A model generated the notes under the pieces. The model was not told the origin of the DNA. It did no database searches and saw nothing but the letters and a program-made list of their open reading frames with translations. Below are positions 13,586 to 39,269 of a stretch of DNA of 40,055 nucleotides, in pieces; the first letter of the stretch is position 1, and every line of letters starts with the position of its first letter. The translations under genes were made by a program, and so were the position numbers. The DNA is from Planctomycetota bacterium (GTDB lineage Bacteria; Planctomycetota; Planctomycetia; Planctomycetales; Planctomycetaceae): the NCBI GenBank assembly GCA_003671275.1, contig QWPB01000185.1, forward strand, positions 1 through 40,055. Reading direction: 5' to 3'.

Positions 13586-14314
13586 TCAGGCACTGACACG
13601 CTGGGACGAGGTCGACGTCGTTTGCTCCCAGCGGGAGATCATCTCGGCCATTTCCGCAATCTGCTGAGCCAGTGCCGATTGTGATTCCTGAAGCGCGGCC
13701 GCCCGACGCTGGCACTCGGCATCCTGTTCGGCCACTCGCTGGCTCTGGTCACGCAGGAAATTCGTGAGTTGCGTCAACGTCGTTTCGCTACGATAGGCAT
13801 TGATCGAAAGCGCTGCGGGCACCGCCGCAGACCGCATTTGAAGAGCCGCTTCCAGCAGGGCAGCTGCCCCGCCTTCACGTCCGAGTTCAAAGGCGTCGAT
13901 CTGTTCTTGCTCATCTTCAATGCGCTGGATGAGCTGATGAACGCTCAGTTCTGTCGGACTCACCGAGGACTCGCCATCGACAGCGGATTGGGCCTGGAGA
14001 GGGGCTCCCGCATTCACCACTCGATGAAACACGAACTCAAATTCGCCAATCTCGACCTGATCGCCATCCCGAAGATCAACCGCCCGACGTGCGTCCCCGT
14101 TAATGAGAAGTGGCGGATCGGACACAACCGCTTCCAACGTAACGAGCGGACCGTCGATCACCAGCAAACTGTGCAACAAGGGGCAATGTTCGCCACCCAA
14201 TTGCAGGTGACAATGACTGCCAGCCCCAATGAGGAACCGGTCCCCGGTGATCGGACGGAGGGGAAAGTTGGTCTTTCCCCGACGAATTTCAAGCCACATG
14301 CCGGCGTTCGACAC
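13586..14314 (-). CDS. FHA-like domain protein with coiled-coil C-terminus
   Basis: The protein has 242 residues from a GTG at 14314 with AGGA about 6 bases upstream; an ATG five codons later is an alternative. Residues 1-100 look like a forkhead-associated domain (WLEIRRGKTNFPL, DRFLIGAGSHCHLQL, then LRDGDQVEIGEFEFVFH). The usual Ser/His phosphothreonine-binding residues are only partly recognisable, so binding is uncertain. The rest is helical, with Gln/Ala/Glu-rich stretches (LRDQSQRVAEQDAECQRRAA) that probably form a coiled coil. No membrane segment is seen. It is followed at once by the MoaD-like gene. FHA proteins normally read phospho-Thr marks, and this window encodes two Ser/Thr kinases, but no direct link is shown. 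Confidence 0.75.
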   Translation of the reverse strand: MSNAGMWLEIRRGKTNFPLRPITGDRFLIGAGSHCHLQLGGEHCPLLHSLLVIDGPLVTLEAVVSDPPLLINGDARRAVDLRDGDQVEIGEFEFVFHRVVNAGAPLQAQSAVDGESSVSPTELSVHQLIQRIEDEQEQIDAFELGREGGAAALLEAALQMRSAAVPAALSINAYRSETTLTQLTNFLRDQSQRVAEQDAECQRRAAALQESQSALAQQIAEMAEMISRWEQTTSTSSQRVSA

Positions 14315-16210: not shown

Positions 16211-18856
16211 GTGTGGCCCTTGGATCAAGCAGCACGTTACGAACTGCTGGAAAATCTCGGCACCGGGGCGTACTCGACCGTCTATCGAGCGCGTGACAAC
16301 GAGCTGGGGCGGGAAGTCGCCATTAAGGAGATTCACGCCGAGCAGCTGGGAGATACCCGCGCCAGTGATCGCTACTGGGCGGAAGCTCAGGTACTGGCGT
16401 CGTTACAGCATCCGCACGTCGTCACGATCTATGACATCGTCCGCAGTCGAGGGTGGCTGGTTCTGGAACTGATGCAGGCCAGCCTGCGGAATCGGTTGAA
16501 TGGTCGTCCGATGGATGTCCGGGCTCTGCGGACGACCCTGATTCATGCCCTCAAGGCTCTGAAATATCTGCATGCCAGGGGATTGATTCACAGCGACATC
16601 AACCCAGGCAACCTGATGATCGACCACCGCAAGCGGGTGAAGCTCGGCGACTTTGGCGTCTCGCGGGGGTTGGCCGCCATGGAAGGCGGAATCGGTCGCG
16701 GGACAGCCAAGTACATGGCCCCCGAGTCACTCGCGGGCAAGGTGTCCCAGATCGGACCGGCCAGCGACCTCTACTCGCTCGGGTTCAGCTGTTACGAACT
16801 GTTGTGCGGCGCGGGATTTCGGGATCTATTCCCGGGGCTCGATCTGAGTGATCCCCAGGCCGATGCGACCTGGATGATGTGGCATGCCGCCGCGGATCGT
16901 CGCCTCCCGCCGATCAGCCAGGTACTGGAAGGGGTTCCTGCCGATCTTGCGTCGATCATTGACCGTATGATTTGCAAAGATCCCGCCGCGCGGTATCAGT
17001 CGGCGGACGAAATTCTCGACCAGCTGGGGGAGAACACACACTCCACCGATCGTGAGTCCCAGCCGACAACGGGGCCCGAAGAGGCACTGCCGCTGAAGAA
17101 GCCACGCCCATGGGTGGTCGCATTTTGTGTGCTGTCGATGCTGATGTCGGTGGGGCTGTTGCTCCTTCCCACCGGACCAGCCCCCGATGCGGCTCCGCCG
17201 CCGGTGATCCATGGAGTCGTTCGCGGGGCCGATCTGAATCGCCGGGTGATTGAGATCGAAGATCCCCAAAACGGAGTTCCCGAAGAGTTCCCGCTTCCCG
17301 CGAAGCCCAAAATCCTGCTTCTGAAGTCGGGAGAGGCCGATCAGTTCATCCTGCCGCGGGATCTCGCAACGGGTGACTGGATCCAGATTCATCGCCCCGC
17401 TGACCCGCAAGGGGAGCCCACGTTCAGGGTCTCGCGGCCGGTATTGCAGTCCGGTGAATTGCGAATGATCGATCTGGCATCCCAGCGGGTGACCATTTCC
17501 ATCGAGTCCGGAAGATTGCGGGACGAAGTGGTCATGCTGGTCACTCCTCGTACCCGAATCACGCTGAACGAACAGCCCGCTCAGCTGGGCGAACTCCGTC
17601 CAGGGGATCAGGTAACAGTGGAGCATTTGCTCGATCCGACGGGACAGGCCGGCCAACTGGTCAGTCGATTATCCGCCACCCGAGGTGAAGAAGTCACCGG
17701 TTTCATTCAATCGATCAACGCCGCCAACCGTCAGATGGCTGTGGCGGCCCGCCGCATGGCAAAAGACGGGCGTCTGCTGACCCTGGCCCAGAACTGTTCC
17801 AGTCAGCTGTCGACCGGTGAGCCGTTGCCCTGGGATCAGATCCGCATCGGGGATCGAGTCCATTTGCGGGTCGATTCGCAGGTCCGCTCGGTGACCATCA
17901 CTCGCGGAGATTCCACGGAATCGGGACTGTTTGCGGGCTCCGGCGATGCCCCTCGAACGTTTCAAGTCGCCAGCGATGAGGGGCAGACCATGACCTTCGC
18001 ACTGGCGGAAACGGTCGATATTCGCCTGCACGGAGAACCAGCGACGCTCGACCAGCTGCGTGCGGTGCATGACCGTGTCACGCTGACCATCCGGGATGGC
18101 GAAGATGGCATGTCGCAGGTGACAGCGCTCGATGCTCAACGGGGAATGCGGCATAACCGCTGGGTCATTGTGATCGGTTGTGGTGCCTACAGCGATCCGG
18201 CTGTGAAACCAGTTCCACATTTTGCGACCGATGCTCGCACCCTGCATCAGACACTGACCAGGTTCTATGGGGTGGACCCCACCTGGAGCCAATTACTCGT
18301 CGATCCCGAGATTCAGACGGTGCGAGAAGAAGTCCCCGCCCTGTTATCGCGGGTCACCGAGCCGATGCAATTGATAGTGGCCCTCTTTGGCCACGCCTAT
18401 CGCAACAAGGACGGGAGAGTCTATCTGGCGTATCGCGACTACCGCTGGGACGATCCGGCAGGCAGCGGATTACCACTGGATAGCATTATCCAGGCCTTGG
18501 AGCGGTGTCCCGCGAAGGACAAGCTGCTGCTGCTGGACCTGGCCCCGGAAGGGGCTCCACCCGACGGGGAAGGGACTCTGGACCTGCCGCGGATGCTGGC
18601 AACGCTGACGGTCCCGCTGAAAACCCTGCGGATCATTGGGGCCTCATCCGAGGGGGAGCAAAGCGTGGCACTCGATGGTCAACTGCAAGGCTGGTTTGGT
18701 AGCGAGCTGTCGATCGCATATCGCGGTGCCGCAGACGAAGACCGCGATCTGACGATCACACCCGATGACCTGATGAAGCATTTGAATCAGGTAGCGTTCG
18801 ATGAGCAGTCGCACCGCCAGCAACATCCCTTTGAATGGGACCGCGAGACGCCCTGA
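16211..18856 (+). CDS. Ser/Thr protein kinase fused to a caspase-like (pseudo-protease) domain
   Basis: The protein has 881 residues from a GTG start. Residues 10-275 are a kinase domain: GTGAYSTV glycine loop, VAIK with Lys39, catalytic loop HSDINPGN (127-134), DFG (147-149) and APE (170-172). The usual HRD Arg and the catalytic-loop Lys are replaced by Ser and Asn. One membrane segment lies at about 300-320. Residues 335-640 are beta-rich and hold three or four modules with RPGDQVTV/RIGDRVHL/VHDRVTL motifs, like DUF5666-type barrels. Residues 650-865 resemble a C14 caspase: WVIVIGCGAYSD, FATDARTLHQTL, LIVALFGHAYRNKDG (His728), LLLLDLAPEG and ASSEGEQS. The catalytic Cys expected in the LLLDAC motif is Ala778. 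The caspase-like part is therefore outside the membrane and probably inactive. Function unknown. Confidence 0.85.
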   Translation: MWPLDQAARYELLENLGTGAYSTVYRARDNELGREVAIKEIHAEQLGDTRASDRYWAEAQVLASLQHPHVVTIYDIVRSRGWLVLELMQASLRNRLNGRPMDVRALRTTLIHALKALKYLHARGLIHSDINPGNLMIDHRKRVKLGDFGVSRGLAAMEGGIGRGTAKYMAPESLAGKVSQIGPASDLYSLGFSCYELLCGAGFRDLFPGLDLSDPQADATWMMWHAAADRRLPPISQVLEGVPADLASIIDRMICKDPAARYQSADEILDQLGENTHSTDRESQPTTGPEEALPLKKPRPWVVAFCVLSMLMSVGLLLLPTGPAPDAAPPPVIHGVVRGADLNRRVIEIEDPQNGVPEEFPLPAKPKILLLKSGEADQFILPRDLATGDWIQIHRPADPQGEPTFRVSRPVLQSGELRMIDLASQRVTISIESGRLRDEVVMLVTPRTRITLNEQPAQLGELRPGDQVTVEHLLDPTGQAGQLVSRLSATRGEEVTGFIQSINAANRQMAVAARRMAKDGRLLTLAQNCSSQLSTGEPLPWDQIRIGDRVHLRVDSQVRSVTITRGDSTESGLFAGSGDAPRTFQVASDEGQTMTFALAETVDIRLHGEPATLDQLRAVHDRVTLTIRDGEDGMSQVTALDAQRGMRHNRWVIVIGCGAYSDPAVKPVPHFATDARTLHQTLTRFYGVDPTWSQLLVDPEIQTVREEVPALLSRVTEPMQLIVALFGHAYRNKDGRVYLAYRDYRWDDPAGSGLPLDSIIQALERCPAKDKLLLLDLAPEGAPPDGEGTLDLPRMLATLTVPLKTLRIIGASSEGEQSVALDGQLQGWFGSELSIAYRGAADEDRDLTITPDDLMKHLNQVAFDEQSHRQQHPFEWDRETP

Positions 18857-19905: not shown

Positions 19906-19932
19906 CCCGTGCCGCTGATACTACGGCACGGG
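19906..19932 (-). terminator. Hairpin enclosing the stop codon of the formylglycine-generating-enzyme gene
   Basis: CCCGTGCCG and CGGCACGGG form a perfect 9-bp stem around a 9-base loop. The TAG stop of the gene (19921-19923) is in the loop. There is no T-run, so it may terminate weakly or only stabilise the mRNA end. Confidence 0.4.
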
Positions 19933-21138
19933 AGCCGGTGGCCCTCGCCAGGCGGCAATTGCGGCTTGCCGCTCTTCGTACACGGAGCGTCCTGCCGGGT
20001 CAACGACTCCCCGAAAGCCGGTATGGAAGGTTCCGGACGTGAACTCTCCCTTCATGCGGGCTCCGGTGCGATAGCCCGTGCAGCTGTTGGTGTTGCACAT
20101 GAACGACCCACCGCGAATGATCCGTTTGATGATATGCGGTTCCATCGGGTCATGGCTGAATTGAGGACCACGCGGATTCCTTCGTGGTGACACGGCATAG
20201 TAATCCGCCCCATAGTAGTCGTGGCACCACTCCCAGACATTGCCCGAGATGTCATAGAGCCCCAGACGGTTCGGAGGAAACGCTTTCACCGGGGAGGATC
20301 CCTCAAATCCATCCAGGACTTCGGGGGCGACCGGGAATTCCCCCTGATAGTAGTTACACAGGTAAGTGCCATTCGGAGACAAGTTTTCCCCCCAGGGATA
20401 ACGCATTCGTTCGCCTCCATTGCGTGAGGCAAATTCGAATTCGGCTTCGGTTGGCAATCGCTTGCCAGCCCAATCCAGATAGGCCACTGCATCTTCCCAG
20501 TTCACGTGGACCACGGGATGATCCATGCGATCGACAAGGGAGGATTCCGGACCTTCCGGCTGTCTCCAATTGGCACCGGGGACGAACTTCCAGACCTGAT
20601 ATTCCCAGGCACACACCGATCGGTCGAGCGTTGATCTGTCAAATTCGGGGTTGTAGCAGAGCGAACCGGGAACCAGATCCTTCTCCTGAAACAACGCCCC
20701 ATCAAGGCCGCTGCGGGCCATTTCTTCGCGGGTCGGCTTCTTCTCCGAGAACGTCACATAACCGGTCATGGCCACGAACTCGGCAAATTGTCGGTTGGTG
20801 ACCTCCGCGGCATCCATCCAGTACCCGTCGAGTTCGACGGCGTGGGCGGGGTTTTCGTCCGGTTTAACCCGGTCGGGGTTTTCGGGGCCCTCAAGCGGAG
20901 AGGCGTTGGTCCCCATCATGAACTGGCCGCCGGGCACCCAGACCATTCCCAACGGGGCGGCAGCCGGGGCATCCACAATCAGGGAACTGGCCGAATGATC
21001 CCCGGGGGATTTCCCGGTTGGCCAGAGTGTGACCACCGCCCCGCCTCCGACAAAAACCAGTAGCGCTACAATCAACAAACCAGGCGAGAGGCGACTCTCG
21101 GGCTGCGAATCGGGCGATGGACTTGCGAAAACGGACAT
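19921..21138 (-). CDS. Formylglycine-generating enzyme (SUMF1/FGE family), membrane-anchored
   Basis: The protein has 405 residues. A single hydrophobic segment at about 20-40 (GLLIVALLVFVGGGAVVTLW) should anchor it, with the catalytic domain outside the cytoplasm. FGE-sulfatase motifs follow: GMVWVPGGQFMMGT, DGYWMDAAEVTNRQFAEF, VHVNWEDAVAYLDWAGKRLPTEAEFEFA, GLYDISGNVWEWCHDYY. In GGSFMCNTNSCTGYRTGARM the two cysteines (348 and 353) have the same spacing as the copper-binding active-site pair of known FGEs. This enzyme oxidises the Cys in CxPSR of sulfatases to formylglycine. The sulfatase at 11600-13135 carries CTPSR and would be a substrate. Many planctomycete SUMF1-domain proteins lack the cysteines, so their presence here is significant. 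Confidence 0.9.
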   Translation of the reverse strand: MSVFASPSPDSQPESRLSPGLLIVALLVFVGGGAVVTLWPTGKSPGDHSASSLIVDAPAAAPLGMVWVPGGQFMMGTNASPLEGPENPDRVKPDENPAHAVELDGYWMDAAEVTNRQFAEFVAMTGYVTFSEKKPTREEMARSGLDGALFQEKDLVPGSLCYNPEFDRSTLDRSVCAWEYQVWKFVPGANWRQPEGPESSLVDRMDHPVVHVNWEDAVAYLDWAGKRLPTEAEFEFASRNGGERMRYPWGENLSPNGTYLCNYYQGEFPVAPEVLDGFEGSSPVKAFPPNRLGLYDISGNVWEWCHDYYGADYYAVSPRRNPRGPQFSHDPMEPHIIKRIIRGGSFMCNTNSCTGYRTGARMKGEFTSGTFHTGFRGVVDPAGRSVYEERQAAIAAWRGPPAPVP

Positions 21139-22337: not shown

Positions 22338-22988
22338 TTACTGCCGCCGTAGTTCGTCATCGGACATTCGCAAGGACTCAGTCCAGCGTTTCCGCCGCCC
22401 CCCGGCATCGAGAATCCCACAGAACAGGCAGAATCCGCCGATCGCCCCCATTCCGCGCGACAGCAGCTTCACACTCTGCCCTAACCAGGCTTGCGGATCA
22501 TCCAGACTTACCACGCTCCCCCAGTGGATCCAAGCCAGGCCCAACAGGCCAGCCAGCCCCAAACTGACACGCCAGCTCAGACCAACCGCGCGTTCTAGCG
22601 GGGCTGCCGGGGCCCACTGTGAAACCGTCAGTAGCCGACGGGGATGTGGAATTACAGTGACCGGGTGCCAGACCATTCCCACCTGTCCCAGATCCGCCAC
22701 CAGGGCCGCCACCAGACACGCTCCCAGCAGTCGCCCCACTTCGATCACCACGGCCTGCACAGAGGTCCCAAGCGAACCGCCGTCACGCACCGTCGACAGG
22801 TCGATCTGAAAGCTGCTGGCCATCAAGTCTTGCAGGGCTCGCAGCAGATTCGGAACGCAGTACGGCACGACCCACGCCGCGACCAGCAGGACAACCCCTG
22901 CCGTTAGTTCGGCACTGCGAGGTGAATACCCCATCCGACGAGCCTCGGCCATCCGTTGCCGATCCAGTGTGACAGGCGACTCGCTCAT
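22338..22988 (-). CDS. flhB: FlhB-type export protein lacking the cytoplasmic autocleavage domain
   Basis: The protein has 216 residues. Its ATG overlaps the fliR stop (ATGA), so translation is probably coupled. The N-terminus, RQRMAEARRMGYSPRSAEL, resembles the FlhB start. About four hydrophobic segments follow, then HPVTVIPHPRRLLTVSQW and the end of the FlhB membrane part, WTESLRMSDDELRRQ, which matches the LRMS-QEVK motif. The frame then stops. The cytoplasmic domain with the NPTH autocleavage site, normally about 140 residues, is absent, and none of the other frames downstream encode it. FlhB normally controls the export-substrate switch by NPTH cleavage. Either this role is missing or the domain is encoded elsewhere. 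Confidence 0.83.
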   Translation of the reverse strand: MSESPVTLDRQRMAEARRMGYSPRSAELTAGVVLLVAAWVVPYCVPNLLRALQDLMASSFQIDLSTVRDGGSLGTSVQAVVIEVGRLLGACLVAALVADLGQVGMVWHPVTVIPHPRRLLTVSQWAPAAPLERAVGLSWRVSLGLAGLLGLAWIHWGSVVSLDDPQAWLGQSVKLLSRGMGAIGGFCLFCGILDAGGRRKRWTESLRMSDDELRRQ

Positions 22989-23782
22989 GGGGATTGTTCC
23001 CCCGATACAGCCATCAACGAGGGTCTCAGCAGGCGGTCGAGTTCCGCCTCGACCCGCTCCGCATTCCGAGGAAGCAGAGCCCCCAGAAGGATCAGCGCCA
23101 GAGCTGCCCGGATCGGCGAGATGGCTTGCCCGAGAGGAATTCCCCAACTGCGGGAGAACATGGCCAACGCTCCCTGCAGCAAAATCTGCATCAGACAGAT
23201 CGGCAAGGCAATTCCCAGGGCCAGAAGTGATCCAGCCCGCATCCAGCCCACCATCAGGCTCACCCACTGATCGGTCGACGAAAGCGTCCCCAGCGGGAGG
23301 GCGATAAACGAAGCCCGGAGCGACTCAATCCAGGGCCCTTCAGCCCCCAGCGTCATGGTCAGCAGGAGCCATGATCCGATCCAGACCAGGAGTTGGGCCG
23401 TGCCTTGCATGTCCGCATCTGCAGGGGTGTCCAGAACCGGTTCAGCGGTAAGTCCCGTACTGGTTTGTTCATCGATCCAATTGCCGGCTGACCGCAATGC
23501 AGTGAGCACGAATCGCATCCCCAGTCCCAGCAAAACTCCACTGAGCAGTTCACCCAGAACGGAGCCCCCTGTCAGTGTGACCTGGGGATGTGCCGGCACG
23601 GTGGCCGCCAACGGCCAGGCAATGACGAGAGCCATCGCCAACCGGGCCCGCCAGGGAATCACTCCCGCCCCGGCAAAGGGGCACGCCAAGACCATTCCAC
23701 TCAGCCGACACATCGCCAGACCCGTCACCACCCATTCGGGAGGCAGCATTCCGGAAACGTCCATGGCCAGCGGGAGAATCAT
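22985..23782 (-). CDS. fliR: Flagellar export component FliR
   Basis: The protein has 265 residues and about six hydrophobic segments. Matches the FliR/SpaR family: RLSGMVLACPFAGAGVIPWRARLAMALVIAW, then LGLGMRFVLTALRSAGNWID and the late ALPICLMQILLQGALAMFSRSWGI. It forms the membrane core of the flagellar type III export gate with FliP and FliQ. It starts 64 bases after fliQ and its stop overlaps the flhB-like start. Confidence 0.9.
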   Translation of the reverse strand: MILPLAMDVSGMLPPEWVVTGLAMCRLSGMVLACPFAGAGVIPWRARLAMALVIAWPLAATVPAHPQVTLTGGSVLGELLSGVLLGLGMRFVLTALRSAGNWIDEQTSTGLTAEPVLDTPADADMQGTAQLLVWIGSWLLLTMTLGAEGPWIESLRASFIALPLGTLSSTDQWVSLMVGWMRAGSLLALGIALPICLMQILLQGALAMFSRSWGIPLGQAISPIRAALALILLGALLPRNAERVEAELDRLLRPSLMAVSGEQSP

Positions 23783-23846: not shown

Positions 23847-24100
23847 CAGTGACGGGTCAATGCCTCACGGGTAAATTCTCCCAGTCGGTCAACCATCCAG
23901 GGCAGAAAGTACGCCAGTGCCAAGCCCCCCACCAGCAGGCGGGGAATCGTGGTCAACGTCGAATCCTGAAGCTGCGTCGAGGCCTGAAACAGGCTCACCA
24001 GACCACTGGAGATGAGCAGGCAGCATAACATCGGTCCGGCGATCACCAGGATCGTCCAGATCGACTGACTCAACAGGTCGATTCCGATCTCGGGAGACAT
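23846..24100 (-). CDS. fliQ: Flagellar export component FliQ
   Basis: The protein has 84 residues, typical for FliQ, with two hydrophobic segments (ILVIAGPMLCCLLISSGLVS and LVGGLALAYFLPWMV). The pattern LFQASTQLQDSTLTTIPR matches the FliQ cytoplasmic loop (Q-TQ-Q-TL). Its ATG overlaps the fliP stop in TGATG. It is part of the FliPQR export gate. Confidence 0.9.
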   Translation of the reverse strand: MSPEIGIDLLSQSIWTILVIAGPMLCCLLISSGLVSLFQASTQLQDSTLTTIPRLLVGGLALAYFLPWMVDRLGEFTREALTRH

Positions 24101-24825
24101 CAGACACTCACACTTTGAAGCAACATTCGCACCGTCAACGCCCAGCCATCAATCGACACGAACACCAGCAGCTTGAGCGGTAGCGATACCCACAGCGGGG
24201 GTAACGTCGACAACCCCATGCCTGTCAGCAGTGACGAGACGACCAGATCAATCACCAGAAACGGCAACAGAATCTGAAGGCCGATCAGGAACGCGACCTG
24301 CAACTCGCTCAGGACGAACGCTGGTAACAGGACACTGAGCGGCAGATCTTCGAAATACTGCGGGGCGGCCCCCTGGCCCTGACTGTCCCGCGAACGCAGG
24401 AACAGCGACACGTTGCGTTCGTTTCCGGCAGCCTGCAATTGCTGCACCATGAACCGTTTGAGGGGGTCCATGCCACGTTGTACCGCGTCTCGCAGGCCGG
24501 CCCGCTGGGCGTCGAGATCGGGGTAGCTGGTTCGCTGATAGGTCTCGATTCCATCGTGATAAGCGGTCTCCCAGACGGGAGCCATCACCGCGATCGTCAG
24601 CATCAACCCCAACCCGGTTATCACCTGATTGGGCAGATACTGACTGCCTCCCAGGGCCTGCCGCAAAAGCCCCAGGACGATCGCAAACCGCATCCAGCAG
24701 GTCGTCAGCAGGAAAATCGAGGGCAACAGCCCGATGATACTGAAAGCCAGCATCACTTGCACGGAGGAACCCACGCCGGCTGGTCCCAGCCAGCTGGCCG
24801 GAATCCAGCCTGTCCAGTCAGACAT
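24100..24825 (-). CDS. fliP: Flagellar export component FliP
   Basis: The protein has 241 residues. FliP motifs: ARG-like RFAIVLGLLRQALGG, LPNQVITGLGLMLTIAVMAP, the VLLPAFVLSELQVAFLIGLQILLPFLVIDLVVSS core, and LPLKLLVFVSIDGWAL. Unlike many FliP proteins it has no obvious cleavable signal peptide; its first membrane segment is LAFSIIGLLPSIFLL. It overlaps the fliO end by 8 bases and abuts fliQ. It forms the FliP5 core of the export gate. Confidence 0.92.
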   Translation of the reverse strand: MSDWTGWIPASWLGPAGVGSSVQVMLAFSIIGLLPSIFLLTTCWMRFAIVLGLLRQALGGSQYLPNQVITGLGLMLTIAVMAPVWETAYHDGIETYQRTSYPDLDAQRAGLRDAVQRGMDPLKRFMVQQLQAAGNERNVSLFLRSRDSQGQGAAPQYFEDLPLSVLLPAFVLSELQVAFLIGLQILLPFLVIDLVVSSLLTGMGLSTLPPLWVSLPLKLLVFVSIDGWALTVRMLLQSVSV

Positions 24826-27163: not shown

Positions 27164-29818
27164 ATGCCCACTGGCCTTCCCAAGTCGTCTGAAGTCATCC
27201 CACCACGCTCGGCGTTTGGTTTTGTGCGCCCACTGCCCACAGCTCGCACGGATGAGACCGCAGCCGAAGCCACACGTCTGGTGTCGGTTCCCCGCGAACG
27301 TGATCGCTGGGACCGGCTGTTCCCGAGTACCGCCGGTCTCAATGAGCCTGGGTCGTCCTATCAGGTCAATGGACTGCAGTTCGGCAACTACATTATTCAG
27401 GAGCGAATTGGCCGGGGCGGCATGGGAGCGGTCTTTCGGGCTGTCGACATCCGTCTCGACCGGGTGGTCGCACTCAAGGTGCTGGCCCCGGAATACACCC
27501 GCGACCCGGCTTCGGTGCAACGTTTTCAGAACGAAGCCCGGGCTGCCGCAAAACTCGATCACGATACCATCGCGCGCGTCTTTTCCTCGGGCGAAGACAG
27601 TGGGCAACAGTATATCGCCTTTGAATATGTGGCCGGAACGAACCTGCGTGAGATGATCCAGAACCGGGGGAGTCTGACTGTTCCCGAAACAGTGAGCATT
27701 CTCCTGCAGATGGCCGATGCCCTGCGGTATACCAGCGCCGCGAATGTCGTCCATCGCGACATCAAGCCCTCGAACATCATTGTGACAGCCGCCGGACGCG
27801 CCAAACTGGTTGATCTGGGCCTGGCGCGGCAAACACAGCTGCCCGGGGAGGAACTAACGGTCCACGGGACGACTCTCGGCACGTTTGACTACATCTCACC
27901 GGAACAGTCAGTCGACCCGCGAAATGTCGACGTTCGCAGCGATATCTACTCGCTGGGCTGCACGGCCTATCACATGCTAACGGGGGAACCTCCCTATCCG
28001 CAGGGCACGATGATCCAGAAAGTTATGGATCATCACGCCATGAAGATGCCCGACCCTCAAGCCAAAAACCCACTGGTTCCCCTAGTGCTGTCGCGGATCA
28101 TCCAGAAGATGATGGCCAGTCAGGTCGAGGCCCGTTATCAGCGTCCCGAAGACCTGATTCGCGACCTCACACCCCTGGCCCAGGCTTACGGCATCGCGAT
28201 CCGCCCCGGAGAGTTGAATTCGCCGAGTACCACACGCTGGTCCTGGTCCGAGTTTCGCGGGTGGATTCTGGCGGCAGGGATCTTGCTGGCGGTGGGGGTT
28301 CTCGCCAGCTGGCCGCCGACTGAGCCCCAACCCACCTCTTCCCCTGAGCGCCCCGCGATGGAGCTGGCCGCTGTGGCCGCGATTCCGCCCGCCGCAGAAG
28401 CGCATCGCGCGGCCACCGGAGGAGGGACGAACGATTCACCCTCCGAGAGCCCCGCTGTCGACCACTCGGTAGTGGGTGGTTTTAAGTCGGGAGCCATCTG
28501 GGGCAACAACAACGTGTCAGCCGCACCTGTCCTGGGTCAGCTGGCCACAGTGGGTAGCAGTGGCAGCCGAATGACCAGTGAGGGGCCCTCGCCGACAGCC
28601 AGCCCGCCGATTGAGGAGAATCGGTTCTGGATCGCCGAATCGGCCTTGGGGGAAGCCCATGGGGATCAGGAAAAATCCTATCCAACACTGGAGGCCGCCT
28701 GCCTGGATGCACCAGACAACTCGACCATTGAACTGCGTTACGACGGGGCCGCCCCACCACAGCGACCGATTCGGATCGAGGGCAAATCGCTTCGCATCCG
28801 GGCCGAGTCCGGTCGTCGTCCGACGCTGACATTTGAGGCCCCCGGGGTGGTCGGACTGTCGGTCACGCCACAGATGATTACCGTAACTAGCGGCGGGTTG
28901 ACGCTGTTCGATATCGACCTGATATTTCGAGTGCCTCGCGGGCGGGCTGCCAATCGCTGGAGCCTGTTCTCTCTACAACACGCCAAGAACCTGACGCTCC
29001 GGGGCGTCTCAGTGACCCTGGAAAATGCGCAGCGGCAGCAGCCGGCAACGGTCTTTGAGATTCGTTCCGCATCGGCCACGGGTACGGATCGGTTGATGCC
29101 GGATGGCATGATGAAGGGGCCGATTCAGATTCAGATTTCGCAGTCCATCTTTCGGGGTGAGGCGGATGGATTTCGGATGGACGAGTCGATCGAACTACAG
29201 GTTGATATGTCCCACGTGGCATGGGGACTCGCAGGAGTGCTGATCGGGATCGATACCCGGGAACGAGTTCAGATGGCCACCATGTCCGAACCGGTTGCCG
29301 TGCGGGTGGTGCTAAATAACGTCACCGCCGTACTGGAAAACGGCCTGGCACAGATGACCGCCGGAGAGGCCCTGTCGGCTCCCGTGCTGCGAGTGGAAAG
29401 CGAGAACTCGCTGATCTCGATGCTGCGAGCGGATCAGGCACTGGTCACCATGAGCGGGCCACTGGAGATGCGTGACTGGCAGGAGCGGCTTCACTGGCAA
29501 GGGAGCCACAATTATCTGGACGTGACCGGCTCCTGGTGGGAAATCTCCGCTCAGCGATCACTGTCGATGCCCAATCGACGCTACAACGCCGCCGACTGGG
29601 ATCTCCAGTGGAACAGCATGGGGGGGACGATCATTGATCGCAATGTCTACGAGTCCAGCGAACCCTGGGAGAACGCCGTCTTCCATGAAATCGAGGCCGA
29701 GGCGTTCCACCTGTACTCGCAGCCCGGCGTCTATAAGGCCCCCGAAGGTGCGGACGGACGACACGCGGGGATCGACTGGTCCCAGCCTCGCTTGCCGAAG
29801 CGGTTTCCCGATTTGTAA
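27164..29818 (+). CDS. Transmembrane Ser/Thr protein kinase with beta-helix-like extracytoplasmic domain
   Basis: The protein has 884 residues. Residues 1-70 are a low-complexity lead. The kinase domain spans about 74-340: GRGGMGAV glycine loop (83-90), Lys105 in VALKVL, HRDIKPSN (197-204), DLG (217-219, in place of DFG) and a SPE motif (245-247). It resembles PknB-type kinases. A membrane segment at about 366-383 (GWILAAGILLAVGVLASW) is followed by a Pro/Ser-rich linker. From about 500 the sequence resembles a parallel beta-helix: TIELRYDGAAPPQRPIRIEG, SLRIRAESGRRPTLTF, LTLFDIDLIF, LTLRGVSVTLE. That kind of domain usually binds polysaccharide. It is probably a surface sensor. The start has no clear ribosome-binding site. 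Confidence 0.85.
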   Translation: MPTGLPKSSEVIPPRSAFGFVRPLPTARTDETAAEATRLVSVPRERDRWDRLFPSTAGLNEPGSSYQVNGLQFGNYIIQERIGRGGMGAVFRAVDIRLDRVVALKVLAPEYTRDPASVQRFQNEARAAAKLDHDTIARVFSSGEDSGQQYIAFEYVAGTNLREMIQNRGSLTVPETVSILLQMADALRYTSAANVVHRDIKPSNIIVTAAGRAKLVDLGLARQTQLPGEELTVHGTTLGTFDYISPEQSVDPRNVDVRSDIYSLGCTAYHMLTGEPPYPQGTMIQKVMDHHAMKMPDPQAKNPLVPLVLSRIIQKMMASQVEARYQRPEDLIRDLTPLAQAYGIAIRPGELNSPSTTRWSWSEFRGWILAAGILLAVGVLASWPPTEPQPTSSPERPAMELAAVAAIPPAAEAHRAATGGGTNDSPSESPAVDHSVVGGFKSGAIWGNNNVSAAPVLGQLATVGSSGSRMTSEGPSPTASPPIEENRFWIAESALGEAHGDQEKSYPTLEAACLDAPDNSTIELRYDGAAPPQRPIRIEGKSLRIRAESGRRPTLTFEAPGVVGLSVTPQMITVTSGGLTLFDIDLIFRVPRGRAANRWSLFSLQHAKNLTLRGVSVTLENAQRQQPATVFEIRSASATGTDRLMPDGMMKGPIQIQISQSIFRGEADGFRMDESIELQVDMSHVAWGLAGVLIGIDTRERVQMATMSEPVAVRVVLNNVTAVLENGLAQMTAGEALSAPVLRVESENSLISMLRADQALVTMSGPLEMRDWQERLHWQGSHNYLDVTGSWWEISAQRSLSMPNRRYNAADWDLQWNSMGGTIIDRNVYESSEPWENAVFHEIEAEAFHLYSQPGVYKAPEGADGRHAGIDWSQPRLPKRFPDL

Positions 29819-35089: not shown

Positions 35090-37009
35090 CTACGCCTGAT
35101 CGGGCTCTTCCAGATACGTATAGCCGTCGAGCCCTTCTTCAATGAATTTGACGTACCGTCCCGCCTCGGCGTGGGTGATGCGTCCCTCGCGAATGGCCAG
35201 GTCGATCGACAACTGAAGCCGGTCGATCAGATCGCGGCCCTTGAACTGCACGTAGTCCAGCACTTCGTTGACGGTCTCCCCCTTGAGGATCTGGTTCAGT
35301 TCCACTTCCCCGGAGGCGTTCAAGTCAACATGCACCGCGTTGGTGTCACCGAACAGGTTGTGCAGATCACCGAGAATCTCCTGGTACGCACCAATCAGGA
35401 ACGCCCCCAGGTAGTAATGGTGCCCGTCATACGGATGTAGCAACAGCGTTTTTTTTACATCCCGCTGGTCGATAAAGGTGTCGATCTTGCCATCGGAGTC
35501 ACACGTGATATCGCTGATCACCGCGTGCCGCGTGGGCTGCTCATTCAGCCGATGGATCGGCATCACGGGAAACAGCTGCTTAATGGCCCAACTGTCGGGT
35601 AACGACTGAAACAGCGAGAAGTTGCCGTAGTAGGTGTCCGACAACATCCGATCAAGCCCCAGGAGCTCTTCGGGTGTATGATCCAGTTCCTCGACCAGTT
35701 TTCGAATCTTGTGAATGATGGCAAAGAACAGATTCTCGGCAATCACCCGCTGATCAAGAGGCAGATACCCCGCACTGAACAGAGTGGTGGCCGTGTCGAG
35801 AGCTTGAAGAGCATCGTGGTATGTTTCGAGTACGTTCCGCGCGGTGGCCTCCTGATAGGTAATCAGCAGATCGTGTAGCGGTTGTTCGTGCTCCTCCGGC
35901 ATTTCGGAGGGAATCTCGGTGACTTCCCCCTGAGTGGTCACCCCCAGCGTTCCAAACACCAGCACGCTGTGAAAGGCCGCTACGGCTCGCCCGCTCTCGG
36001 TGATGATGTTCGGATGTGGCACGCCGACTTCGTCACACACGGTCTGGATGTGATAGATCACATCGCTGGCATATTCCTGCCAGGTGTAGTTCATGCTCGA
36101 TTCGAAGTTGGTCTGCGACCCGTCGTAGTCGATTCCCAGCCCGCCTCCGACATCCAGGAATTTTAAGCCCGCTCCCCGCTTGGCCAGATCGGCATAAACG
36201 CGGATGGCCTCGGTCACGGCCCCCTTCACTTGCCGGATGTTGGTGATCTGGCTGCCGAGGTGGAAATGCAGCAACTGGAAACAGTCGGTCATGCCGAGGG
36301 TTTCCAGCTTCTGGTAACACTTCAGGAGTTCGCTGACGGTCAGTCCGAACTTGGATCGGTAGCCGCCCGAAGATTGCCAGCGTCCCGATCCCCGTGTGGC
36401 CAGCTTGACTCGCATGCCGATCTGCGGACGCACGCCGACACGTTCGGCATATTTCAGGACCAGATCGAGCTCTGACATCTTTTCCACGACGGGGATGACA
36501 TTCCGCCCAATCTTCTGGGCCATCATCGCCATCTCGATGAATTCGTCGTCCTTGAAACCATTGCAGATCAGCGGTGTGGTGGTATCCGCCAGAGCAATCA
36601 CGGCCATCAATTCCGGCTTGCTGCCCGCTTCCAGGCCGAAACCCAGCGGACGTCCGTACTCGATGATTTTCTCGACGACTTCCCGCTGCTGGTTCACCTT
36701 GATCGGGTAGACACAGCAGTATTTTCCCTTGTAGGCGTGTTCCTCGATAGCCTGCTGAAAGACATCATGGATCTCCTTGAGACGGTCTTTCAGAATCCCG
36801 TTAAAGCGAACCAGAATCGGGAGGTCCAGCCCCCGCTGTCCGAGCCGGTCAATGAGCACCTTCAGATCCAGTTTTCGCAGCGGATCGCGATCCGGGTGGA
36901 CGAAGAGATGACCGTTCTCTCCCACCGAAAAATAGCCCTTACCCCACCGTGGGACATCGTACCAGTCACTGGAGTCATCGCTGGTCCAGCGGTCGGCGGG
37001 TTCAATCAT
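35090..37009 (-). CDS. speA: Biosynthetic arginine decarboxylase
   Basis: PLP-dependent decarboxylase that turns arginine into agmatine for polyamine synthesis. The protein has 639 residues, typical of the family. The PLP lysine is Lys104 in YPIKVNQQREVVEKI. Other signatures are FGLEAGSKPELMAVIA, TRGSGRWQSSGGYRSKFGLT, LDVGGGLGIDYDGSQT, NIITESGRAVAAFHS and the late VITDITCDSDGKIDTF. Domain order is normal and the start has a strongly conserved WYDVPRWGKGYFSV. No regulatory element was recognised upstream. Confidence 0.95.
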   Translation of the reverse strand: MIEPADRWTSDDSSDWYDVPRWGKGYFSVGENGHLFVHPDRDPLRKLDLKVLIDRLGQRGLDLPILVRFNGILKDRLKEIHDVFQQAIEEHAYKGKYCCVYPIKVNQQREVVEKIIEYGRPLGFGLEAGSKPELMAVIALADTTTPLICNGFKDDEFIEMAMMAQKIGRNVIPVVEKMSELDLVLKYAERVGVRPQIGMRVKLATRGSGRWQSSGGYRSKFGLTVSELLKCYQKLETLGMTDCFQLLHFHLGSQITNIRQVKGAVTEAIRVYADLAKRGAGLKFLDVGGGLGIDYDGSQTNFESSMNYTWQEYASDVIYHIQTVCDEVGVPHPNIITESGRAVAAFHSVLVFGTLGVTTQGEVTEIPSEMPEEHEQPLHDLLITYQEATARNVLETYHDALQALDTATTLFSAGYLPLDQRVIAENLFFAIIHKIRKLVEELDHTPEELLGLDRMLSDTYYGNFSLFQSLPDSWAIKQLFPVMPIHRLNEQPTRHAVISDITCDSDGKIDTFIDQRDVKKTLLLHPYDGHHYYLGAFLIGAYQEILGDLHNLFGDTNAVHVDLNASGEVELNQILKGETVNEVLDYVQFKGRDLIDRLQLSIDLAIREGRITHAEAGRYVKFIEEGLDGYTYLEEPDQA

Positions 37010-37223: not shown

Positions 37224-39269
37224 TTACTTAGCCACCTGCGGATTGTACCCCGGGGCGGCCAACCAGTTCTTCAGGCTGGCTCCGTCTTCGGTATTCCAGA
37301 TGCGAACCTCGCCATCGTAACTACCAGTCGCCAGGCGGTTCACCGGACTGAAGCTGACCGCGTACACCCAGTCGCCGTGACCGGCGAACTGTTTGATCTG
37401 GGCCGCATCGTTCGCATTGTGCAGCCGCGCGGTTTTGTCCGCCGAACAGCTGAACACGCGGTTATCAGCCAGCACCTGAATTCGAAAAACCGCACCGCCG
37501 AAGCCGCCGATCTCGCGAACCTGCCCCGCATCCGCCGATTTCCAGACGCGCATGCGGTTGTCCCCACCCCCTGTAACCACATGGGCATTATCAGCCAGCC
37601 AGCCCACGGTGTAAACCACATCTCCGTGCGTGTTAAAGGTGGTTTGAGCATCACCCGTCTTGGCATCGAACACCTTGGCGGTCTTGTCTCGGCTGGCACT
37701 GGCCAGCTTGGTGCCATCGGGAGACCAGGCCACATCCATAACCCAGTCGGCATGGTCTTCGATGACCAGCTGCTCGGCGTATGTCGCGGCGTCAAACACC
37801 CGAATCGACCGGTCCGCCCCGCTGGCCGCCAGACGAGTTCCGTCTGCGCTGAAGGCAACTGAGAAGACGGCGTCTTCAACCGTGACTAAATCGGCGAGCA
37901 AGGCTCCGTCCGCGACTTGGAAGACTTTCACCTCGCCGACCTGACCGGGAGTGCCCCCCGCGATCGCGATCCGCTGTCCGTCCGGGGTGAAGGCAATGTC
38001 GTGGACCCGCTCAGCCACGTTGGTGATCCGGCGAACCAAGGCACCATCCGCCGGGTTGTACAGCAAGACTTCATGATATCCCGAGGAAGCCAGCAGCGTG
38101 GCATCACCATTCAGCGCCACCGCCGTGACCGGCACCGCCATCGGGTACGCCTCGGGAGCTGCGGGCTGGACGGCCTTGGGCATGACCTTAATCAAGGCTG
38201 CATTGGGATCAATCCCCGCGTCCAGCTGAGCCCCCAACGAGACCCACTTGGCAATCATGTCGATCTGTTCCTTGGCCAGCGGATCGGCATCCTTGGGCAT
38301 GGAACCGTCACCCACTTCACGGCACAGGTTGCAGTCGAGCTTACCCGGTTCGATCGCCGGTCCGGACTCTCCCCCCTTCATGAGCGAGGCAAACGACTCC
38401 ATATTCAGCCGCCCCTTGGCCATCCGGGCGTTGTGACAGGCGATACACCGCTTGTGAAAGATGTGGGCGACTTCCCGGCTGAACGAGACCCACTGCCCCA
38501 TCTCGGTCAGCGTGGATTCAACGATCCGCTGCTTGCCCAGCCAGTCGTCACGGGTAGCCTTCAGAGTGCCCTGGGTCGCGGCGACTTCGGTCCGAACAGC
38601 CACCAGCGTCTGGTCAACTTGTGCCAGCGAGGCCATTGCGGCAGACATCGTCTGCTTGGTGGCGTTGACCATCTCGGTGGTCTTCTTCGCCACGGCATCG
38701 GCATCCACGGAAGCCTTGGCCGCAGTTTCGGCTGCGACCTTCGCCGCATCGGCCTTCTTCTGGGCCTCGACCAGCGCAGCAACAGCGTCGGTGTTTCCCT
38801 TGTCAGCCACGACTTTGGCTTCGTTGGCCTTGGTCAACGCTTCGTTCTGGGTCACCAGCGTCTTCTCGGTCTCGGCCAGTGTTTTGGTGGCCTGTTCCAG
38901 TTCGCGTTTCAGCTTCAGCAGCTGTTGCTCAACCTCATTCAGTTTTGTCGCGGAGGCTGTCGCGGCGGCTTCAGCAGCAGCACGCTGCTGCAGGGCGGAT
39001 TCGGCTGCGGCCTTTTGCTCCGCCAATTTCTGCTCGGGTGTAGGGGCGGGCGGAGGGGTGGGCTCGGCCGGTTTTTCCGCAGCGGGCTTTTCTTCAGCGG
39101 GCTTCGTTTCAGCCGCCGGAGGAGCCGGTTCTTCAGGCTTCGTTTCCGGAGTGGGCACGGCGGGCGCTGCCGGAGTATCCTCCGCCCGCAGCTGAGGCTC
39201 CAGCCCAACACCGCAGGCCGCAACGCATGACACCAACAACGCCCAACAGCCCAGGAGGTTCCGACTCAT
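37224..39269 (-). CDS. Cytochrome c-motif / WD40-repeat protein with coiled-coil spacer
   Basis: The protein has 681 residues. A signal peptide covers about residues 1-29. Residues 30-80 are a Pro/Glu/Lys/Ala-rich linker, and about 80-255 a long Ala/Lys/Glu coiled coil. A PSCyt1-type heme motif, CIACH, lies at 275-279, followed by GRLNMESFASLMKGG and a second Cys pair (DCNLCREVGDGSMP). Residues 370-675 form about six to seven WD40 repeats, with GDWVYAVSFSPVNRLATG and ADWVMDVAWSPDGTKLASAS. The WD40 part probably makes a beta-propeller. A ribosome-binding GGAAG lies about 8 bases before the ATG. Role unknown; it is likely exported. Confidence 0.9.
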   Translation of the reverse strand: MSRNLLGCWALLVSCVAACGVGLEPQLRAEDTPAAPAVPTPETKPEEPAPPAAETKPAEEKPAAEKPAEPTPPPAPTPEQKLAEQKAAAESALQQRAAAEAAATASATKLNEVEQQLLKLKRELEQATKTLAETEKTLVTQNEALTKANEAKVVADKGNTDAVAALVEAQKKADAAKVAAETAAKASVDADAVAKKTTEMVNATKQTMSAAMASLAQVDQTLVAVRTEVAATQGTLKATRDDWLGKQRIVESTLTEMGQWVSFSREVAHIFHKRCIACHNARMAKGRLNMESFASLMKGGESGPAIEPGKLDCNLCREVGDGSMPKDADPLAKEQIDMIAKWVSLGAQLDAGIDPNAALIKVMPKAVQPAAPEAYPMAVPVTAVALNGDATLLASSGYHEVLLYNPADGALVRRITNVAERVHDIAFTPDGQRIAIAGGTPGQVGEVKVFQVADGALLADLVTVEDAVFSVAFSADGTRLAASGADRSIRVFDAATYAEQLVIEDHADWVMDVAWSPDGTKLASASRDKTAKVFDAKTGDAQTTFNTHGDVVYTVGWLADNAHVVTGGGDNRMRVWKSADAGQVREIGGFGGAVFRIQVLADNRVFSCSADKTARLHNANDAAQIKQFAGHGDWVYAVSFSPVNRLATGSYDGEVRIWNTEDGASLKNWLAAPGYNPQVAK

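Follow-up and report, generated by a model that had tools for sequence, protein, structure and literature searches.

The question raised by the gene at positions 16211-18856 (forward strand) of the window, by which we mean the whole 40,055-nucleotide stretch of planctomycete DNA analysed here, is why a Ser/Thr protein kinase should be fused across the membrane to a caspase-like domain devoid of its catalytic cysteine, and which process such a protein might serve. The open reading frame begins with a GTG codon and encodes 881 amino acids, arranged as kinase, membrane helix, four beta modules and caspase-like domain; full-length relatives in other genera are about 35-40% identical. This architecture had been proposed in a sequence-only reading of the locus, and it is borne out by coordinates, motifs, domain matches and fold. 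The kinase domain of the Ser/Thr (Hanks) type covers residues 10-270 (16238-17020) and matches Pfam Pkinase (PF00069) with E 6e-46 and a score of 157.4 bits against a gathering value of 31.7. The single membrane helix of the protein lies at residues ~301-319 (17111-17167), with hydropathy of 2.5 over 19 residues and a modelled helix at 301-318. Since the motif LKKPRP precedes it, the positive-inside rule predicts a cytoplasmic kinase, with the remainder of the protein outside. There follow four tandem small beta modules (residues 331-645, 17201-18145), predicted to be extracytoplasmic and modelled mostly with pLDDT >90 as OB/cold-shock-like or DUF5666-like units; Foldseek returned partial matches to tandem cold-shock (7zhh) and S1 proteins. 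Comparison of the outer region with C14 caspases and DUF5666, suggested earlier, gave a caspase fold for its C-terminal part, but for the beta modules DUF5666, like CusF, yielded weak matches in single orthologues.

The caspase-fold (C14-like) domain comprises residues 648-862 (18152-18796). In the AlphaFold model of residues 331-881, built on 73 orthologues (pLDDT 92.8, pTM 0.85), this domain matched metacaspase-4 (6w8r; Z 20.0, rmsd 2.9 over 204 residues), procaspase-6 (Z 19.9) and MALT1 (Z 19.5), about 200 residues being aligned to each of the latter two; the fold, which had been set beforehand as the point open to refutation, was thereby confirmed. Because the whole domain aligns to residues 340-555 of MALT1 and 42-283 of procaspase-6, p10-like elements may be present in the modelled structure. 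The best sequence-family matches of the C-terminal domain are NCBIfam caspase_w_EACC1 (NF047832) and Pfam Peptidase_C14 (PF00656). The window domain, which lacks the nucleophile, matches the former with E 4e-16 and 59 bits, where the curated cut-off is 140, and does not match the latter, the gathering score of which is passed by orthologues (e.g., L015 at 49.8 bits). In the active site, His728 (codon CAC, 18392-18394) is present in the motif FGHAY, and the nucleophile position is occupied by Ala778 (GCC, 18542-18544) in LLLLDLAPEG, as had been read at first and as translation and orthologue alignment agree. A cysteine at an alternative aligned position was also looked for; some homologues have Cys777, and the window has Leu there. 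Judging by these residues, the domain cannot cleave by the standard mechanism, and the earlier proposal of a pseudo-protease outside the membrane is upheld by fold, topology and the lack of Cys at both 777 and 778. Behind the caspase domain a C-terminal tail of ~230 amino acids with weak TPR matches was observed in L010, L012, L013, L017 and most orthologues from outside the family; it is missing in the window and in much of its family.

Prokaryotic caspase homologues with broken dyads are already known (PMC3501461, PMC6426788). The dyad is intact in 84% of prokaryotic caspase homologues overall and in 64% of those from Planctomycetes (PMC3501461), and pseudo-orthocaspases have been described as proteins with the p20 fold and a substituted dyad, including His-Ala and Gln-Cys types (PMC6426788). 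The window domain shares both the prokaryotic p20 fold and the substituted dyad with these proteins, and is of the His-Ala type; unlike it, those described are found mostly in Alphaproteobacteria and Cyanobacteria and have other domain partners (PMC6426788), whereas here the domain stands behind a transmembrane kinase and has, as a rule, lost its dyad.

That such loss is the rule became evident from a search of whole genomes (E <1e-60), in which 57 of the 170 genomes from the window's family, and 13 from other families of its class, yielded orthologues, the named relatives being Planctomycetaceae, Schlesneria, Planctomicrobium, Pirellulales, Thermoguttaceae and Mariniblastus. In a MAFFT alignment of 92 orthologues the caspase-like domain is present in 84, absent from seven and cut by a contig end in one. 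On that alignment, upon which the dyad states depend, both His728 and Cys778 are kept in nine of the 84 domains; 19 have the His with Cys only at 777, 30 have the His and no Cys, and 26 have no His. Thus the same fusion, together with Cys-bearing versions, was recovered from other planctomycetes as had been proposed, and the loss of Cys, though real in the window, is usual in the family and not peculiar to this gene. Among 15 control C14 domains taken from other proteins of related genomes the nucleophile Cys is present in all, and the GH motif is readable in 14, the fifteenth and weakest match being gapped at the His in the alignment. Since only 9/84 dyads are intact in the fusion against 15/15 nucleophile Cys in the controls, dyad loss is, as far as the alignment allows one to judge, a trait of the kinase-caspase fusion family. 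On a quick, unrooted tree computed without the caspase columns, the His changed a minimum of 15 times, the Cys a minimum of 10, and the whole domain was lost at least twice; no convincing remnant of it was detected in the domain-less lineages (best E 0.003). The window belongs to a clade of seven members (SH-aLRT 99), none of which has Cys at 777 or 778 and one of which lacks the domain. One orthologous protein therefore offers a natural series, with the dyad intact, half lost or wholly lost and the domain deleted, that is useful for asking why a pseudo-protease is retained. Apart from the fusion proteins, a row of several C14 proteins with intact dyads was seen at 1-14000 of L087 (G086), one of them with two tandem caspase domains.

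The kinase half had likewise been considered modified, with HSDIN in place of HRDLK. The catalytic loop is indeed altered (I-H-S-D-I-N-P-G-N, residues 126-134, 16586-16612, HSDIN being residues 127-131), but the family norm, found in the other 91 orthologues, is HGD[ILV]K and not HRDLK, so that only Gly128Ser and Lys131Asn count as departures, and the Lys of HxDxK is replaced by Asn131. Gly128 and Lys131 are kept in 91/91 other orthologues and altered solely in the window. Lys39 is kept in 89 of the 92 aligned orthologues, and Glu58, His127, Asp129, Asn134, Asp147-Phe-Gly, Glu172 and Arg261 in 92/92, the window included in both counts; the sole changes of Lys39 are K39R (VAIR) in L007, L055 and L056, all with an intact caspase dyad. 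Over 60 near-invariant kinase columns the window shows four departures, the most of any row (the next has two), and the combination of G128S, K131N, R153G and G179S occurs among the 92 orthologues in its lineage only. The codons of HSDIN rest on one assembly, each genome of the window's clade being represented by a single assembly, and a check in same-genus sister species found no orthologue in two genomes that are 66-71% complete. Of the earlier statement that both enzyme halves are modified, the part on the caspase half stands, but the kinase half is strongly conserved family-wide; the scaffold deduced from it holds in part, the kinase loop changes being confined to the window's lineage. The activity of the window kinase is uncertain on these residues, and with the K131N loop its output may be weak or purely structural.

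A better clue to the function than the sequence motifs of the window protein alone is the link to Tad genes. Of the 84 orthologous loci that exceed 7 kb, 49 show, directly upstream on the same strand and at a median gap of 34 bp, a conserved gene of ~300 amino acids; its product has one membrane helix and either an FHA domain or a zinc ribbon. Upstream of the kinase gene the order is an FHA+T2SSE ATPase, two T2SSF genes, the ~300 amino acid gene and then the kinase, which in many relatives is the last gene of the Tad-pilus operon; the fuller operon of L195 additionally contains an A24 prepilin peptidase, TadE-like, Tad/TadG-like and CpaB/RcpC genes and a second T2SSE gene. The ancestral operon joined the kinase with FHA-TadA, TadB, TadC and the FHA or zinc-ribbon membrane protein. 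Because the relatives belong to this pilus-type machine, control of the Tad machine, not proteolysis, is the probable role. No linkage of the kinase family to T6SS was seen, its recurrent neighbours being Tad genes. Two further kinds of recurrent neighbour were discarded: at least one upstream family (family 8), which proved to be a shadow frame within the Tad genes, and opposite-strand families overlapping these genes. A conserved gene of 120-164 amino acids, receiver-like by eye, stands directly downstream of the kinase in L071, L072, L078, L118, L124 and L129; in the first three of these the kinase has no caspase domain.

Neither the window nor those members of its clade with long flanks show Tad operon linkage. 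All five genes are nevertheless kept in the window's genome on separate contigs: FHA-TadA on C133 (65% identity), the T2SSF genes on C163 (55%) and C42 (54%), the FHA membrane protein on C27 (33%) and the kinase on C196. The operon has broken up within the clade, the ATPase gene still adjoining one T2SSF gene in G121 and G122 and standing alone in the stretch examined in G123, G029, G061 and the window's genome; the Tad operon of G005 and G024 is intact but no longer includes the kinase gene. Every row whose FHA domain was examined retains the FHA Arg of TadA; the Ser that contacts phosphothreonine is Ala in the window's genome (IARKQ) and two others and Gly in two. In many of the upstream partner proteins a zinc ribbon takes the place of FHA, and the key Arg is missing from several FHA copies.

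Presence of the kinase follows, almost without exception, that of the FHA-TadA subfamily, delimited at ≥60% identity, a cut-off chosen at a gap in the data (other FHA-TadA proteins lie at ~50%). Both occur in 55 genomes of the class sample, the kinase alone in one, the ATPase alone in none and neither in 342; these counts are not corrected for kinship, and shared ancestry inflates any p-value for such co-occurrence. In the sample of the window's family the corresponding numbers are 53, 4, 1 and 112, and of the four genomes with the kinase alone three are 64-83% complete; outside that family the two genes agree in 13/13 genomes. The match persists over several families and where linkage has been lost. 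Another FHA-TadA group, ~49% identical, was seen in some genomes that lack the kinase-caspase protein (G345, G358, G177, G205 and others).

Considering these data, we favour, with moderate confidence, the explanation that the protein is a transmembrane kinase regulating the planctomycete FHA-type Tad machine, the pseudo-caspase serving as an extracytoplasmic sensor or docking module and not as a protease. With the kinase in the cytoplasm and the four beta modules and pseudo-caspase on the periplasmic side, the outer part would meet a ligand or partner, upon which the kinase would phosphorylate threonines on Tad components; the FHA domain of the motor ATPase would read the phosphothreonine, and assembly or activity of the machine would be altered. 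Within this scheme phosphorylation, its recognition by FHA, the sensing step and the effect's direction are inferred, and sensing or docking is the most likely role of the pseudo-caspase. The fuller picture, in which a kinase, with a protease fold recruited as its outer sensor, switches the Tad nanomachine by way of the FHA domain on the motor, making the machine a phospho-controlled Tad system, is put forward as a tentative and somewhat doubtful possibility; in the window itself, K131N and the Ala at the phosphothreonine-contact Ser of FHA-TadA count against a working phospho-switch.

Parallels to such regulation exist. In the T6SS threonine phosphorylation pathway of PpkA-Fha, membrane-located upstream regulators are thought to sense signals (PMC3953482). 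As there, a Ser/Thr kinase is here encoded with an envelope machine having an FHA protein, which in PpkA-Fha is the phosphothreonine reader; unlike there, the machine is Tad, the FHA domain is on the motor ATPase, phosphorylation is only inferred, and the outer part of the kinase consists of four beta modules and a pseudo-caspase. Closer in machinery is Kil, the Tad-like predation apparatus of Myxococcus, the KilF ATPase of which has an N-terminal FHA domain and which includes further FHA proteins (PMC8460266); its authors suggested a signalling cascade, and the word kinase is absent from their main text. The planctomycete system resembles Kil in being Tad-like, with FHA on the ATPase and other FHA proteins, but differs in the dedicated kinase and the TadG-like gene present at its locus. 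Class III CpaF/TadA proteins (PMC12019362) have the same order, FHA then T2SSE, as the partner ATPase here, but no cognate kinase is mentioned for them. A kinase is implied because FHA domains sit on Tad motors; the papers on Kil and on class III CpaF (PMC8460266, PMC12019362) name none, and the kinase-caspase family is a specific candidate. If our explanation is true, it supplies the kinase half of a cascade that, for Kil and other Tad machines with FHA, had been no more than a suspicion. As the candidate is tied to one ATPase subfamily by operon and co-occurrence, phospho-control of Tad pili is directly testable in cultured planctomycetes. No published description of the kinase-caspase fusion or of its Tad link was found in the open-licence literature.

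Residual proteolysis with a different nucleophile would give the outer domain another meaning, and His728 together with Cys777, present in 29 orthologues, could be cited for it. The window, however, has neither Cys, and since free C14 relatives often read DCCH at this position (several of the control domains and the sole other C14 protein of the window's genome among them), Cys777 is most readily understood as the first residue of a Cys doublet that has lost the second; moreover, having a Cys does not go along with having the His over 13 independent pairs. A shifted catalytic Cys at 777 was rejected on these grounds, and we regard a surviving protease as scarcely credible. Hardly more appealing is an immune or programmed-death effector: multidomain bacterial proteins with caspase-like domains are frequent in conflict systems (PMC7159879, PMC8195603), but the conserved neighbours are Tad and not defence genes, the active site is mostly lost, and across families the occurrence of the gene goes with that of one Tad ATPase. 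PADLOC kinase models do match the protein, by generic kinase homology alone, and a defence-system origin was rejected; we consider such an effector very improbable.

The domain could also be drifting baggage, a former protease for which the need has gone and which erodes while the kinase works alone. The few intact dyads, the many kinds of replacement at both residues, the repeated changes of His and Cys on the tree and the domain losses leaving no remnant agree with this, and since two lineages have the kinase without the caspase domain, the latter is dispensable to the core role. Against erosion, the domain is kept in six of the seven rows of the window's clade at a pairwise identity of 35%, compared with 36% for the beta modules, and is still modelled as a tight fold with pLDDT mostly >90; its retention in these dyad-less lineages argues for a structural role, and baggage is in our opinion a somewhat unlikely account. 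A different alternative supposes that the kinase, too, has lost its activity in the window's lineage, leaving a pure scaffold that holds Tad partners together, as K131N with G128S in the loop, the excess of departures over the 60 columns, the unlinked Tad genes of the window and the altered contact residue of its FHA-TadA would suggest. Yet Lys39, Glu58, Asp129, Asn134, the DFG Asp147, Glu172 and Arg261 are all present, and the window substitutions may be assembly errors. Kinases without the loop Lys can stay active, as tyrosine kinases, which have Ala there, demonstrate. We accordingly hold the pure scaffold to be unlikely, and retain the regulatory transmembrane kinase as the preferred explanation.

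Several other genes of the window deserve mention. An FHA/YscD-like protein is encoded at 13586-14314 on the other strand, ~2 kb from the kinase gene; with no recurrence next to orthologues, it was rejected as a conserved partner. The gene at 27164-29818 encodes another Ser/Thr kinase protein (Pkinase E 3e-45), relatives of which are encoded at eight other loci downstream of the kinase-caspase gene, mostly at ~2 kb. The window further contains a gene for a WD40 beta-propeller protein (37224-39269); among the genes near it are those for an arginine decarboxylase (35090-37009), FliP (24100-24825), FliR (22985-23782) and an FGE-sulfatase protein (19921-21138).
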